Part shown: piece by piece, positions 40,332 to 45,883 of the stretch
How positions within the stretch are numbered: position 1 is the first letter of the stretch
Layout of the letters: each line of letters starts with the position of its first letter
Assembly (NCBI GenBank): GCA_002898215.1
Contig: BEIF01000001.1
Coordinates: 1,215,602 to 1,279,601 of the forward strand
Length of the DNA: 64,000 bases
Origin: a bacterium HR29
GTDB taxonomy: Bacteria > Chloroflexota > Dehalococcoidia > Tepidiformales > Tepidiformaceae
Reading direction: 5' to 3'
The notes under the pieces: generated by a model
Databases searched by the model: none
The model's input: only the letters and a program-made list of their open reading frames with translations
Told to the model about the DNA's origin: nothing
Made by a program: the position numbers and the translations under genes

Positions 40332-40351
40332 TAGAACGTTTGTTCTACACT
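40332..40351 (+). promoter_or_regulatory. SOS (LexA-type) box and -10 of imuB
   Basis: A 16-bp palindrome, TAGAAC-GTTT-GTTCTA (40332-40347), fits the GAAC-N4-GTTC LexA operator of Gram-positive-type SOS systems. Its right end overlaps a TACACT -10 element (40346-40351), nine bases before the imuB ATG. LexA bound here would block polymerase directly. Confidence 0.8.
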
Positions 40352-40360
40352 GGCAGCCCC

Positions 40361-41584
40361 ATGAAGGTGGCGTGCTTGCTCATCCCCGATTTCGCAGTCG
40401 CGGTGGCTAGGCGCGACCACCCCGAAACCCGCGGGCGCCCGCTCATCGTGGCGGCTGCCGGGGAGGATGCCCCGCGCGTGCGAGCCTGCTGCCCGCAGGC
40501 TGTCCGGTCAGGGGTCAGCGAAGGGATGGTCCTGCGCCGGGCGCTCTCCCTCTGCCCGAAGGCAGCCGTCGTCCCGGCCGACGAGCGGGCGCTGGCCGAG
40601 ACGGCGGCGGCCCTGCGCACGCTCGCCGAGCGGCACAGCCCTGCTGTCGAGGAGGCAGCGCCCGGCCATCTGCACCTGGATGTCCGGGGGCTGGCGCAGC
40701 TCGCGGGGCTTGCCGACGAAGCCTACCTGGCCGACCTCCAGCGGGCAGCTTCGGCAGCGAGCGGGCTTCCGGTGTCCATCGGGGCGGGGCCGGGGGTATT
40801 CGCCGCCCACGCGGCTGCCGCAGCCGCCAGCGCGGAGCATGCCGGGAAAACGGGAGCCCCGCCGCCCGTGCTCGTGCCGGAGGAGGGCGTAGCGGAGTTC
40901 CTAGCGCCCCTCCCGGTGGAGGTGCTCCCCCTGCCGACGGCGATGCATCAGCGGCTCCGACTGCTCGGCATCGAACGGTTGGGCCAGCTGGCGGCCCTTC
41001 CCCGAAGCGCCGTGGCGGCGCAGTTCGGACCCGCTGGCGCTCGCGCATGGGACCTGGCCGCCGGAAAGGACACGAGCACCGTCGTTCCCCGGCGTCCGGA
41101 GCGGACGGCAGGGGCCGCGATGGAGCTTCCTGCACCGGCGAGTACGGCCGAGCAGCTTCTGGCGGCGACCAGCGCGCTGCTCCAGCAAGCGCTGGAAGCG
41201 CCGGCGCTCCGCGGAGCAGCCTGGCGGCGCTGCACGTGGCGGCTCGAACTGGAAAGCGGCGAGGCGGTGGTGCGGGTCGTGACCTTCCGCGAACCTACTT
41301 CCGATGGCGAGCGGATGCTTTTCGTGCTGCGCCAGAAGATCGCGCGGCTGACCCTGCCTTCTCCGGGAGTGCGCCTGTCCCTGAAGCTCTCGGGCCTGTG
41401 CGGCGAATACGGGCATCAAGCCGTGCTCTGGCCGAGCGGGCCGCGGCGGCGGCGCGAACTGCTGGAAGCGGCAGAACAGCTCAGCGCACGGTACGGCGAA
41501 CCCCAGATCTTCCGCGTGGTGGAGGTGGAGCCATGGTCGAGGATTCCGGAACGGCAGCTGGCGCTGGTGGCCTTCGGCCGCTGA
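40361..41584 (+). CDS. imuB: ImuB-type Y-family polymerase homologue (mutasome scaffold)
   Basis: A 407-residue Y-family protein that in other bacteria bridges DnaE2 to the sliding clamp and does not itself polymerise. The palm strand reads CLLIPDFAVAVA, and where active Y polymerases have SxDE this protein has VEEAAPGHLHLDV, so the paired acidic residues appear to be missing. The HhH region (LGIERLGQLAAL) and little-finger domain are present. The ATG at 40361 is used; a TTG further upstream falls inside the SOS box. It is followed by a DUF6504 gene and dnaE2. Confidence 0.9.
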   Translation: MKVACLLIPDFAVAVARRDHPETRGRPLIVAAAGEDAPRVRACCPQAVRSGVSEGMVLRRALSLCPKAAVVPADERALAETAAALRTLAERHSPAVEEAAPGHLHLDVRGLAQLAGLADEAYLADLQRAASAASGLPVSIGAGPGVFAAHAAAAAASAEHAGKTGAPPPVLVPEEGVAEFLAPLPVEVLPLPTAMHQRLRLLGIERLGQLAALPRSAVAAQFGPAGARAWDLAAGKDTSTVVPRRPERTAGAAMELPAPASTAEQLLAATSALLQQALEAPALRGAAWRRCTWRLELESGEAVVRVVTFREPTSDGERMLFVLRQKIARLTLPSPGVRLSLKLSGLCGEYGHQAVLWPSGPRRRRELLEAAEQLSARYGEPQIFRVVEVEPWSRIPERQLALVAFGR

Positions 41585-41853
41585 ACACACCAATCCCTAC
41601 CGCGGTCGACGCCACTCCTTCGGGGGTGCCACGAGCGGTGCTCCGACGGGGCAAGCTCGTGCCGGTGGCGAGGATCATCGACCGGTGGCGCATCGACGAC
41701 GAGTGGTGGCGAGCGCCCATCGTCCGGCGCTACTTCCTGGTGGAGCTGCGCGACGGCCATCAGCTCACCCTCTTCCACGACGCCGTGCACGACGCCTGGT
41801 ATCGGCAGCCCTACCCCGCGCCCGTCGAGCGGGTGCAGCGCCGAGGAGCGTAG
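41533..41853 (+). CDS. DUF6504-like small protein of the imuB-dnaE2 cassette
   Basis: A 106-residue protein starting inside the imuB 3' end (52-bp overlap) with GGAGGTGGAG before its ATG. Its C-terminal 65 residues (ARIIDRWRIDDEWWRAP, RRYFLVELRDGHQLTLFHD, WYRQPYP) resemble the DUF6504 proteins that accompany imuB and dnaE2 in actinobacteria. Rich in Trp, Arg and Asp, with no membrane part. Function unknown; the position suggests a role in the mutasome. Confidence 0.8.
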   Translation: MVEDSGTAAGAGGLRPLNTPIPTAVDATPSGVPRAVLRRGKLVPVARIIDRWRIDDEWWRAPIVRRYFLVELRDGHQLTLFHDAVHDAWYRQPYPAPVERVQRRGA

Positions 41854-41859
41854 CCGTTT

Positions 41860-41879
41860 TCGAACATATGTTCTATACT
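41860..41879 (+). promoter_or_regulatory. SOS (LexA-type) box and -10 of dnaE2
   Basis: TCGAACATATGTTCTA at 41860-41875 contains the perfect 12-bp palindrome GAACATATGTTC. Its right end overlaps TATACT (41874-41879), seven bases before the dnaE2 GTG. This is the same layout as at imuB, so both genes should be repressed by LexA and induced by DNA damage. Confidence 0.85.
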
Positions 41880-41886
41880 CGGGCCC

Positions 41887-44800
41887 GTGGCGGGGTACGT
41901 CGAACTCCACGCGCACTCCTGCTGGTCGCTGCGCGAAGGCGCCAGCACGCCCCACGAACTGGTGGCCCGGGCGCGGGCGCTGGGCTACGAGGCGCTCGCC
42001 CTCACCGACCACGACAATCTGTACGGGGCGATGGAGTTCGCCCGCGCCGCGCACGATGCGGGGATACGCCCCATCACCGGCTGCGAAGTGACGATGGCCC
42101 CCCGCGCGCCGGACGAAGCACCATCGCACCTGACGCTCCTGGCTGCCGATGCCGAGGGTTACCGGAACCTCTGCCGGCTGCTGACCCGCGCCCACTGCAC
42201 GCACGGGAAAGACGAGCCGCGGGTGGAGTGGTCCTGGCTCTTCGAGCTCCGTGACGGGCTGGGCGTGCTCAGTGGATGCCGCCGCGGCCCCTTGGCCAGG
42301 CTCCTCGACCCGGCGCAGGGAGACCTCCGCTGGCGCGAAGCGCGAGCCCTCGCCGGCGAGCTGCGCGACGCGCTAGGCGACGCGTTCTTCGTCGAGCTGC
42401 AGCACCACGACGTCTACGGCGACCGCCATCGGGCCGCTGCCCTGGTACGCATCGCCACCTCGGCCGGCATTCCCATCGTGGCCACGAACAACGTGCACTA
42501 CCACGTGCGGGAGCGGCATCGCCTCCACGACGTGCTGGTGGCCATCCGCCACCGGCTGACGCTGGATGCTTCCCACGCGGTACGGCGGCCGAACTCGGAG
42601 TTCTTCCTGAAGTCCCCCGAGGCCATGGTGCGCCGCTTCGCAGCCTACCCCGAAGCGGTGCGGAACACCCTGGCCATCGCCGAGCGGTGCACCTTCGACC
42701 TCGTCCGCGACATCCCCTACCGGCTGCCCGAGTACCCCGTTCCGGAGGGAGCAACTCCCGACGGCGTGCTGCGGGATATCTGTGAGCGAGCGTTCGCACG
42801 GAAGTACGGGACAGCCGACCCCGCGGTCCGCGCGGAAGCGCGGGAGCGGCTCGAGCGGGAACTGGCCCTCATCGCGAAGCACAAGCTCGCGGGCTTCTTC
42901 CTGGTGTACTGGGACATCCTGCAGCTTGTCGGCGAAATCGCCCACGAGCTGCACGGGCGGCCGCGGGAGCTTCCGCCGGACGAACGGCCGGTAGGGCGAG
43001 GACGTGGCTCCTCGGTGAGCTCCATCGTCTGCTACCTCATCGGGCTTTCGCACATCGACCCGGTGACGAACGAGCTCTACCTGGAGCGCTTTCTGAACGA
43101 CGAGCTGTATTCGCTGCCTGATATCGACCTCGACTTTCCGCGGGACATCCGCGACGAGCTGCTGAAACGTGTCTACGACCGGTACGGGCCGGAGCACGCG
43201 GCGATTGTGGCGGCCTTCCCCACCTACCGCTTCCGGAACGCCGTGCGGGACATCGGTAAGGCGCTGGGGTTGCCGGAGCCGCTGGTGGCGAAGCTGGCGA
43301 AGATGGGAGACGGCTTCGCCAGCGCCCGCCAGGTGGAGCAGGAGATGCGCCGCATCCCGGAGCTGCGCCCTCTTGCCGACCAGCCGCTGTGGCGGGACCT
43401 CATCGAGTTGGCCGAGCAGCTCGCAGGCTTCCCCCGGCACATCAGCCAGCACGTGGGCGGCGTGGTGATTTCCGCCGAGCCCCTTTCGAGCGTCGTGCCA
43501 CTGGAGCCCACGAGGATGGAGGGGCGGTTCGTCTGCCAGTGGGACAAGGATTCCGTCGACGATGCCCGCTTCGTGAAGTTCGATTTCCTCGCCCTCGGAA
43601 TGCTCTCCGCCGTCGAGGAATGTCTGGACATCATCGAGGACACGCATGGGGTTCGCGTCGACCTGGGACGCATCCCCCACGACAGCCCGGAGGTGTTCGC
43701 CGCCATCCGCGAAGGAGACACGATGGGCGTCTTCCAAATCGAGAGCCGGGCGCAGATTCAGACGCTTCCGCGCACCCAGCCGCGGAACCTGGCCGACCTG
43801 GCGGTACAGGTCGCCATCATCCGCCCCGGCCCGATCCTGGCGGGTGCGTTTCGGCCGTACATGGAGTACCGGGAGCGGCTGGCGCGGGGCGAGCCGGTGA
43901 CCATCGACTACGGCCACCCGGAGCTGGAGCCGCTGGTGAGTTGGTGCCTGGCGGAAACGCTGGGCCACGTCCTCTACCAGGACCAGGTCCTTCAGATCGC
44001 CACCTCGGTGGCCGGGTTCACCCCCGGGCAGGCGGATCGTCTGCGCCGGGCGATGAGCCGGAAACGCTCGGCCGAAGCGATGCAGGCGCTGGCCGAGGAG
44101 TTCTTCGCCGGCGCCCGTCGAAAGGGGGTGAGCGAGGAGGCAGCGAGGGTGGCCTTCGAGAAGATCGCGGCCTTCGCTGCCTACGGCTTCCCGAAGAGCC
44201 ACGCGGTGGCTTTCGCCCTGCTCTCGTACGAGTCGTGCTGGCTGCGGCTGCACTATCCCGTGGCCTACTACTGCGCCCTCATCAATGCCCAGCCCATGGG
44301 CTTCTACTCCGTCGAGAGCCTGCTGGAGGATGCCCGCCGGCACGGCATCGAGGTGCGCATGCCGTCGGTGAACGCCAGCCGAGCCTGCACCTGGCCGGAG
44401 GGCGATGCCATCCGCCTCGGCCTCGACCGGGTGGCCGGGCTGGGCGGCGGATGGCGCCGCCGGGGTATCCGCCGCAAGGGCGGACGGGACATCCTCGTAG
44501 GCCCGCTGAGCCCTGCGGAGCGCATCGAATGGGAGCGGACCTGCGGGGGGCCGTACCGCTCGCTCTCCGACTTGGTGACGCGGGCCCGGCTGGACCGCGG
44601 GCAGGCAGAAGCGCTCATCCGCGCAGGCGCGCTCGACGAGTTCGGACTTTCGCGGCGCGAGCTCCTCTGGCAGCTGGGGCTGCTGACGTTGGGGACGACG
44701 AACCGCGAAGGCACCGCCTTCCAGCCGCCGCTGCCGTTGCCCACGGACCAGGACATGGTGTTCCTCCCCGAACTGAGCCCCTGGCAGCGGATGGCGTGGG

Positions 44801-45213
44801 ATTGGGAACTGGTGGGTACCAGCCCCGTCGGCCACCCGATGGCCCTCATCCGTCCGCTCCTCCACGAGGGGATCCTCACGAGCCGACATGTAGGCGGGGT
44901 CGGGAACCCGAACCGGCTTCCCCAGGGGATGCGAGTCGAACTGGCAGGCATGGTGGTCACGCGGCAGCGGCCGGAATCGGCCGGAGGGGTGATGTTCATG
45001 CTGCTCGAAGACGAATTCGGCTGGGTGAACGTGGTCGTCCACCCGCAACTACAGGACGCCCAGCGGGAACTGGTGCGAGCGACACCCTTCGTCATCGTCC
45101 GGGGGAGGGTCGATAACGAACGGAGCGGCTTCCCGCACATCGTCGCGGAGCGATTCAGGCCCTGTCCTCTGCCCGGCCAGATCGCCCCGCCCGATTCCCA
45201 CGATTTCGGCTGA
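41887..45213 (+). CDS. dnaE2: Error-prone DNA polymerase DnaE2
   Basis: DnaE2 performs mutagenic bypass of lesions. The 1108-residue C-family polymerase has an N-terminal PHP domain (VELHAHSCWSLREGAS, LALTDHDNLYG), the catalytic aspartates in LPDIDLDFPRDIRDE near residue 411, the conserved GRGRGSSVSSIVCYLIG, and a C-terminal OB fold (VELAGMVVTRQRP). It is shorter than the replicative DnaE1 and sits in the imuB cassette, both supporting DnaE2. The GTG is 7 nt after the -10, so the mRNA is probably leaderless. Confidence 0.95.
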   Translation: MAGYVELHAHSCWSLREGASTPHELVARARALGYEALALTDHDNLYGAMEFARAAHDAGIRPITGCEVTMAPRAPDEAPSHLTLLAADAEGYRNLCRLLTRAHCTHGKDEPRVEWSWLFELRDGLGVLSGCRRGPLARLLDPAQGDLRWREARALAGELRDALGDAFFVELQHHDVYGDRHRAAALVRIATSAGIPIVATNNVHYHVRERHRLHDVLVAIRHRLTLDASHAVRRPNSEFFLKSPEAMVRRFAAYPEAVRNTLAIAERCTFDLVRDIPYRLPEYPVPEGATPDGVLRDICERAFARKYGTADPAVRAEARERLERELALIAKHKLAGFFLVYWDILQLVGEIAHELHGRPRELPPDERPVGRGRGSSVSSIVCYLIGLSHIDPVTNELYLERFLNDELYSLPDIDLDFPRDIRDELLKRVYDRYGPEHAAIVAAFPTYRFRNAVRDIGKALGLPEPLVAKLAKMGDGFASARQVEQEMRRIPELRPLADQPLWRDLIELAEQLAGFPRHISQHVGGVVISAEPLSSVVPLEPTRMEGRFVCQWDKDSVDDARFVKFDFLALGMLSAVEECLDIIEDTHGVRVDLGRIPHDSPEVFAAIREGDTMGVFQIESRAQIQTLPRTQPRNLADLAVQVAIIRPGPILAGAFRPYMEYRERLARGEPVTIDYGHPELEPLVSWCLAETLGHVLYQDQVLQIATSVAGFTPGQADRLRRAMSRKRSAEAMQALAEEFFAGARRKGVSEEAARVAFEKIAAFAAYGFPKSHAVAFALLSYESCWLRLHYPVAYYCALINAQPMGFYSVESLLEDARRHGIEVRMPSVNASRACTWPEGDAIRLGLDRVAGLGGGWRRRGIRRKGGRDILVGPLSPAERIEWERTCGGPYRSLSDLVTRARLDRGQAEALIRAGALDEFGLSRRELLWQLGLLTLGTTNREGTAFQPPLPLPTDQDMVFLPELSPWQRMAWDWELVGTSPVGHPMALIRPLLHEGILTSRHVGGVGNPNRLPQGMRVELAGMVVTRQRPESAGGVMFMLLEDEFGWVNVVVHPQLQDAQRELVRATPFVIVRGRVDNERSGFPHIVAERFRPCPLPGQIAPPDSHDFG

Positions 45214-45253: not shown

Positions 45254-45883
45254 GTGTACGAACCTGCTGCTGCCGTCACCGATTGGCTGCTGGCCGGGAT
45301 CTGCGCTCCGTTGGCCGCATGGTGCGCCTTCCGCCGACGGTTGGCCTGGGCGGGGGCCTTCGCCACACTCGCCTCGGGGGCCGCGGCGGGCGCGCTCTAC
45401 CACGGCCAGCTGAAGCCGACGCGCCACGGCTCCGCCGCCTGGACAGCCGTCTCGCTCCTGGTAGCGGGGGGTATGCTGGCACTCTACCTTGCGAGCGCAG
45501 CCGAACTCGGGGTGCTTCGCCGTCGGGGGTGGGCGGCGTTGGGCGCCCTCTCCGGGGCCGCACTCGCGGGCGGTTGCGCCGCCGGCCTCCGCACCCTGGA
45601 ACCCCTCCTCGCAACGCAGTCGGGGTCGATGGCAGGAATCGTGGCGCTGTGGGTGCGCGCCGGGCGAAGGAAAGAAGCCGGCGCCGGGTGGTTCCTCGGA
45701 GCCATCGGAGCGAGCGCCGCTGCCGCAGTGGTGCGGGCACTGCCCATCCAGTTCCGCCTCCACTGGGAATGGAACGGGGAGGCGCTGTACCACCTGGCCC
45801 AAATTCCCGGGCTCCTGCTCATCGTCGCCGGGGTGCGGAACCGCCTCCTGGCAGCGAAGCGCGCGCACGACGCCCGACGGTGA
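45254..45883 (+). CDS. Polytopic membrane protein, DUF6962-like
   Basis: A 209-residue protein with about six to seven membrane helices. It starts EPAAAVTDWLLAGICAPLA, has GALYHG after the second helix pair, and a C-terminal basic tail. The TD...LLA start and the lone His in a membrane loop resemble DUF6962 proteins, but I hold this only moderately. No function known. Confidence 0.65.
   Translation: MYEPAAAVTDWLLAGICAPLAAWCAFRRRLAWAGAFATLASGAAAGALYHGQLKPTRHGSAAWTAVSLLVAGGMLALYLASAAELGVLRRRGWAALGALSGAALAGGCAAGLRTLEPLLATQSGSMAGIVALWVRAGRRKEAGAGWFLGAIGASAAAAVVRALPIQFRLHWEWNGEALYHLAQIPGLLLIVAGVRNRLLAAKRAHDARR

Follow-up and report, generated by a model that had tools for sequence, protein, structure and literature searches.

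A small gene overlapping imuB in a Dehalococcoidia genome encodes a standalone ImuB-C domain in an ImuA-less DnaE2 cassette

What is the role of a small gene that starts inside imuB, ends just before dnaE2 and belongs to a cassette without imuA? M. tuberculosis and Caulobacter have a mutasome made up of ImuA, ImuB and DnaE2. The gene in question lies in the window, i.e. the whole stretch of 64,000 nucleotides that was analysed here, which comes from a 2.34 Mb, 97% complete genome of the Dehalococcoidia. An earlier note on this DNA had described the product as a DUF6504-like protein that may be part of the mutasome complex or may replace ImuA. It had placed the ORF at 41533-41853, starting within imuB and ending shortly 5′ of the box before dnaE2, and this is exactly where we find it.

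The cassette consists of three genes on the + strand. The first, imuB or imuY-like (40361-41584), encodes an iPolY of 407 aa without an ImuB-C of its own. It is followed by the small gene, imuB-C (41533-41853; 106 aa, ATG start), which shares 52 nt with imuB in the -1 frame (41533-41584) and has its ATG 49 nt upstream of the imuB stop codon. The third gene, dnaE2 (41887-45213; 1108 aa, GTG start), encodes an error-prone C-family polymerase that scores 1001 bits with the NCBIfam error-prone DNA polymerase model NF004225 (cut-off 939); a separate DnaE1 is present in the genome. LexA-type boxes lie 5′ of imuB (GAACGTTTGTTC, 40334-40345) and 5′ of dnaE2 (GAACATATGTTC, 41862-41873), the latter 8 nt after the end of imuB-C. 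They were identified from the sequence and from a pattern search of the genome, which contains 49 perfect sites vs. 10 for the reversed pattern. The ORFs beside the other SOS sites of this genome were uninformative for a regulon. Directly 3′ of dnaE2 is a gene for a DUF6962 protein (45254-45883; E 1.5e-31).

The small ORF is conserved beyond chance, since 71 of the 148 class genomes have homologues (E ≤ 0.001), nearly always beside imuB. About 5 kb on each side of 75 such places was taken for locus analysis. In a Pfam search with the small protein, DUF6504 (PF20114) was the sole match (E = 0.004), at 17.8 bits vs. a curated cut-off of 24.2. Thus, the description as DUF6504-like was right, whereas membership by Pfam's own rule is not given, since the score lies below the cut-off. 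Beyond this sub-threshold match, single-protein sequence searches of Pfam, NCBIfam and PDB returned chance matches only.

The 106-aa protein is a standalone ImuB-C, i.e. the C-terminal beta-barrel of ImuB, as indicated by profile homology, natural fusions in 11 loci and the predicted fold. The profile (HMM) was built from standalone Chloroflexota copies alone, so that fusions could not leak in. Four canonical ImuB proteins of alphaproteobacteria are matched at their C-termini (E 1e-10 to 8e-6); further matches are a Thermus fusion protein (E 3e-11), three Deinococcus ImuB-C proteins (E 5e-11 to 2e-13) and an actinobacterial ORF upstream of DnaE2. The search set behind these E-values comprised some tens of sequences. 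The best of 1500 shuffled C-termini reached 9.2 bits, compared to 18.5-42.6 bits for the real ones. In the 11 loci in which ImuB and the small domain share one open frame, the match to the ImuB profile extends to position 376-395 of 396, and that to the small-domain profile starts a few residues further on in ten of them and 34 residues further on in the other (L124).

The predicted structure of the small protein is a beta-barrel of six strands and no helix, with a core pLDDT mostly above 90. The ImuB-C superfamily was named by Aravind et al. 2013 and is described in passages of that paper (PMC3765255) as mainly beta with a conserved C-terminal tryptophan. The window's protein agrees with the superfamily in its homology to the domain that follows the Y-family part of ImuB, in its mainly beta, small-barrel fold and in the company of mutagenic polymerase genes. 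The C-terminal tryptophan is present as W89, which is invariant, as is R65, in an alignment of 36 sequences (A1); the expectation of at least two positively charged residues is matched in part, with one invariant. Another alignment (A3) was left out of this test because its loci had been fetched by the pattern WRIDDEW, and a profile of A3 found nothing useful among PDB sequences. A Foldseek search of the small barrel against the PDB gave no match at E ≤ 0.001. With VIA-align, the best hits were affimer/adhiron chains at Z 6.4, a value common by chance, and we claim neither kinship with that fold nor a new fold.

The domain follows imuB very closely across the class. At E ≤ 1e-30, imuB is found in 62 of the 148 genomes, and 60 of these have the domain; in the other two, the contig stops within imuB or 71 nt beyond it. 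Among 74 class loci with the domain (73 plus the window; L123 and L126 of the 75 had no domain match at 1e-6 and were left out), ImuB is adjacent in 58, fused in 11 and not close by in 5. A family found mostly outside mutasome loci, which had been named as the observation that would speak against a mutasome role, is not what the class loci contain. A collection of named relatives was scanned with the peptide pattern WRIDDEW, which is blind to the fused clade, and 80 of 189 relatives were kept. ImuB is adjacent in 77 of these 80 named loci; two of the other three are at contig edges, and in the third (L217) ImuB lies ~3.5 kb upstream.

Class loci without ImuB close by include one beside lexA (L110) and three beside dnaE2 (L097, L122 and L125). 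In L110 (4329-5234), lexA is followed within a few nt by a standalone ImuB-C, and the genome has one DnaE match, DnaE1-like, and no strong ImuB match. L078 (G113 contig C9) carries two tandem ImuB-C copies away from repair or mutasome genes; imuB and dnaE2 of that genome adjoin on another contig, with ~43 nt between the matches. Since these five loci hold copies that have no neighbouring ImuB, ImuB-C can work apart from an adjacent ImuB.

The LexA-type box is also common among the relatives. Of 136 ImuB starts, 87 have GAAC-N4-GTTC in the 260 nt upstream (reversed pattern, 3 of 136), and a box before DnaE2 is rarer (14 of 125 vs. 0 for the reversed pattern). In these counts, as in the reading-frame counts below, some named loci are from the same genomes as class loci and duplicates were kept.

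The partner of the small protein, the window's ImuB, belongs to the Y family according to both its sequence (IMS Pfam match, 9e-21) and its structure model. The catalytic carboxylates of DinB, which we take to be D8, D103 and E104, are all missing from it: the corresponding residues are L7, G102 and H103, the latter two taken directly from the DinB alignment and L7 by extending the count backwards from where it begins. Across 49 aligned ImuB rows, no D or E is found at position 7, and one row each has an acidic residue at 102 and at 103. Judged by these residues, the window's ImuB is predicted to be catalytically dead. A beta-clamp-type motif, Q353-A-V-L-W357 (41417-41431, + strand), is conserved, with Q353 in 49 of 49 rows and L356 in 47 of 49, and it matches the mycobacterial ImuB clamp motif QLPLWG at 352-357 that is reported in passages of PMC10421592.

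Residues 362-398 of ImuB (41444-41554, + strand) form a RecA-NT-like segment. When the C-termini of 64 ImuB proteins were combined in a profile, it aligned with residues 8-51 of RecA at a score of 21.6, which none of 100 column shuffles equalled; by hhalign the match is modest (P 0.006). The ImuB model places a helix at 361-378 and a strand at 384-388, at the protein's very end. ImuB stops after this segment, and the next domain is the separate small ORF.

Does the small protein, then, stand in for ImuA? The observation that the cassette lacks imuA was borne out and extends to the genome: an ImuA model matches RecA alone, so that an imuA elsewhere, which the earlier note had allowed for as counter-evidence, was not found by this search. 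The same model has a match in 138 of the 148 class genomes. In 137 of these the match is single and has a RecA-like score; these were taken as RecA by frame length and score, which was confirmed by position in the window's genome and by homology in nine others. The remaining genome (G136) has a second, stronger match of 246 aa directly 5′ of a fused ImuB. Its contig C24 (L124 / L136) carries a canonical imuA-imuB(fused)-dnaE2 cassette within the same class; the DnaE2 groups with alphaproteobacterial DnaE2 in the tree, and the cassette was perhaps acquired horizontally. No ImuA or RecA match was found in the 80 named loci. The ImuA model also matches, under its cut-off, the gene that precedes imuB in four alphaproteobacterial loci, which indicates that the ImuB-C domain coexists with ImuA there. 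What is lost with ImuA is a RecA-fold subunit, and RecA could supply it via the RecA-NT-like end of ImuB. With the DUF6504-like protein settled as ImuB-C, RecA, and not the small protein, becomes the candidate for ImuA's place.

The start of imuB-C is embedded in imuB codons. In the window the start codon reads CC-ATG-G within the Pro-Trp codons (CCATGG) of imuB, and 7 nt before it is a Shine-Dalgarno-like GGAGG (41521-41525, + strand) that lies in the imuB codons for V-E-V-E-P-W. We compared codon choice in split imuB genes with expectation from their own codon usage, leaving out ORFs without Pro-Trp near the end (105 kept, counted as 89 distinct codon strings); a minority of split pairs start elsewhere. 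The Pro codon is CCA in 48 of the 89 (10.4 expected) and is compatible with an ATG, GTG or TTG start in 83 (61.8 expected). When the set is thinned to 23 genes below 45% identity, CCA occurs in 14 vs. 3.5 expected (P about 3e-8). The Shine-Dalgarno-like run averages 5.4 bases in the 89 split relatives vs. 3.8 in synonymous randomisations. In nine fused genes, CCA is absent (0.7 expected), a compatible codon occurs in 4 (6.8 expected), and the run averages 3.4 bases vs. 3.3 in randomisations. These codon statistics show that the putative ribosome-binding site and start of imuB-C are under synonymous selection inside the V-E-V-E-P-W codons. A start embedded in this way explains how annotation can miss or mis-start imuB-C.

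An overlap in the -1 frame could also mean that programmed -1 frameshifting yields one ImuB protein, of which the small ORF would be the latter part. In favour of this, 116 of 133 split pairs in which ImuB is nearby have retained the -1 frame, and fused proteins exist. However, when the final 60 nt of split imuB were scanned for a slippery heptamer (X XXY YYZ), just 1 of 137 ORFs (chosen by a filter slightly unlike that of the codon test) had one, which is below the 5% of background windows that carry one. Furthermore, start codon and Shine-Dalgarno-like run are selected, and in some relatives imuB and imuB-C are separate and do not overlap. We therefore reject frameshifting, to which we assign a very low probability; because the start signals are selected and slippery sites are rarer than background, independent translation of the small protein is very likely. 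The least credible of all the readings, to the point of being negligible, is that a sequencing error or decay of imuB has caused the split: a small insertion or deletion would unite the two frames, but the same geometry recurs in tens of genomes of Chloroflexota and relatives and the start is under synonymous selection, so that conservation refutes it.

The two remaining alternatives concern function rather than expression. The proposal that the small protein replaces ImuA, as a RecA-like or RecA-contacting mutasome subunit, would account for a small gene within a cassette that lacks imuA. It is contradicted by the coexistence of ImuB-C, as the tail of ImuB, with ImuA in the alphaproteobacterial cassettes and in G136, by the all-beta model, which is not a RecA fold, and by the fact that RecA-NT, the part expected to contact RecA or ImuA, stays on ImuB. 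We regard it as highly improbable, and this half of the earlier suggestion is left unsupported; the other half, that the protein may be part of the complex, gains support from the ImuB fusions, the near-perfect co-occurrence with imuB and the homology to the C-terminal domain of canonical ImuB. A better, though still unlikely, alternative is that, instead of being a dedicated half of ImuB, the protein acts for several polymerases as a general DNA-binding or damage-sensing factor of the ImuB-C type. Such a role was proposed for ImuB-C by Aravind et al. 2013 (in passages of PMC3765255), and it would suit the two orphan copies and the standalone ones that have just lexA or dnaE2 beside them. In the class, however, the domain follows imuB almost without exception and the overlap with imuB is conserved; the lack of a clear fold match to a DNA-binding protein is weak evidence in the same direction.

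Taken as a whole, the data are best explained by a standalone ImuB-C that forms one half of a split ImuB, and we hold this reading with high confidence; the outcome would be a RecA-using, ImuA-less DnaE2 mutasome for SOS mutagenesis. Points that weigh against it are the modest RecA-NT match, the ImuB-C copies that lack a neighbouring ImuB and the separation of dnaE2 from imuB in Tepidiforma-like relatives. Upon DNA damage, LexA would be released from the imuB box and, in the window, also from the dnaE2 box, and ImuB and ImuB-C would be made by coupled translation from one message. The two halves of ImuB would then reassemble. The ImuB scaffold may bind the sliding clamp via Q-A-V-L-W and, through its RecA-NT-like end, RecA in ImuA's stead. 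ImuB-C would join ImuB, its beta-barrel bridging to the PHP domain of DnaE2 and so holding the polymerase; for the fused ImuB of M. tuberculosis, a bridge between barrel and DnaE2 PHP domain has been modelled (passages of PMC12926913).

The fused genes bear on the history of this arrangement. Nine fused rows of the DnaE2 tree (with G136 apart) and ten of the ImuB tree group as a single clade nested among split ones; these are quick trees with several open forks and unsure deep rooting, they include a selection of 19 or 20 from the 80 named loci, and the G136 ImuB is absent from the ImuB tree owing to a coverage filter. The genomes of the fused clade have a RecA-type match alone in the ImuA search. 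The simplest reading of the trees would be a single re-fusion within the split lineage, with ImuA still missing. More tentatively, and with slightly less than an even chance of being right, we propose that Chloroflexota have kept ImuB as two overlapping genes in which the V-E-V-E-P-W codons double as ribosome-binding site and start, that the coupling fixes the ratio of the halves and leaves the RecA-docking end free for RecA, and that one ImuA-less clade re-fused them, as an intermediate between split RecA-using and fused ImuA-using mutasomes. Mostly split lineages with a single ImuA-less re-fusion offer a natural series for testing RecA as a subunit of the DnaE2 mutasome, and a direct role of RecA in the mutasome is left open in passages of PMC8072749.

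The cassette itself is of a known ImuA-less type, iPolY + ImuB-C + DnaE2, which has been described as Kyrpidia-type (passages of PMC6511836). Timinskas and Venclovas use the name split ImuB for iPolY + ImuB-C and expect ImuA's place to be taken by RecA (passages of PMC6511836 and PMC12926913), and RecA is presumably a further component of the window's cassette. In comparison with their iPolY - ImuB-C - DnaE2X - RecA module, the window has the Y-family protein without carboxylates, the RecA-NT-like end and a genome in which no imuA was found; the parts correspond at the level of iPolY, ImuB-C and DnaE2. The window's DnaE2 falls outside the alphaproteobacterial and Deinococcus/Thermus clades. 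With the ImuA-ImuB-DnaE2 mutasome (for mycobacteria, PMC10421592), the window's cassette shares a Y-family hub that is predicted to be dead, a clamp motif, DnaE2 and SOS control. It differs from this canonical system in that imuA is absent and that ImuB-C is not carried by ImuB but is a separate polypeptide.

The closest parallel in gene order is the lexA-imuY-imuB-C-dnaE2 operon of Deinococcus plasmids, which shares imuY-imuB-C-dnaE2 with the window, as well as a predicted-inactive Y-family protein, a standalone ImuB-C (~80 aa), DnaE2, the lack of imuA and LexA control. The small Deinococcus gene is annotated as DUF6504 in two of three plasmid loci, and two Deinococcus ImuB-C proteins exceed the DUF6504 cut-off, whereas the window's protein is below it. 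In addition, lexA is part of the Deinococcus operon and not of the window's, the Deinococcus genes abut by a few nt compared to the 52-nt overlap with embedded start, and the DnaE2 and ImuB proteins of the two groups are in separate clades. Mutagenesis in D. deserti needs ImuY, DnaE2 and chromosomal RecA, and a direct role of RecA is open because RecA is also required for induction (passages of PMC8072749).

In our literature search, nothing was found under DUF6504 or for dnaE2 with Dehalococcoidia, and neither an embedded, selected imuB-C start site nor a fused ImuA-less clade was found described. Chloroflexi, Chloroflexota and Dehalococc- are not named in the main text of a 2026 paper (PMC12926913), and its supplements may include them. 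With the cassette type known, what is new is the near-universal presence of the domain in imuB-bearing genomes of the class, the embedded start under apparent selection and the re-fused clade without ImuA; the system is an ordinary one with informative detail.

The linkage to dnaE2 is looser than that to imuB, since 61 of the 74 class loci have a same-strand DnaE2 no more than 1500 nt away. Five genomes from the same family as the window have dnaE2 elsewhere in the genome, 73-74% identical. In Tepidiforma-like relatives (L152, L154, L155, L164, G033, G107, G118, G129 and G141), imuB and imuB-C are together and dnaE2 is inverted nearby or elsewhere. One single-contig genome of the family (G077) is without imuB, imuB-C and dnaE2 alike, a joint loss or non-gain that counts in favour of the split-ImuB reading. 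A dnaE2-like match in several pieces with stops (G044:C5:376985-380166) is found in a genome that retains imuB and imuB-C. Finally, a short IMS (Y-family) match above the Pfam cut-off, in an open frame of 125 aa (G000:C2:197938-198120; L036), is possibly a remnant of another Y-family gene.
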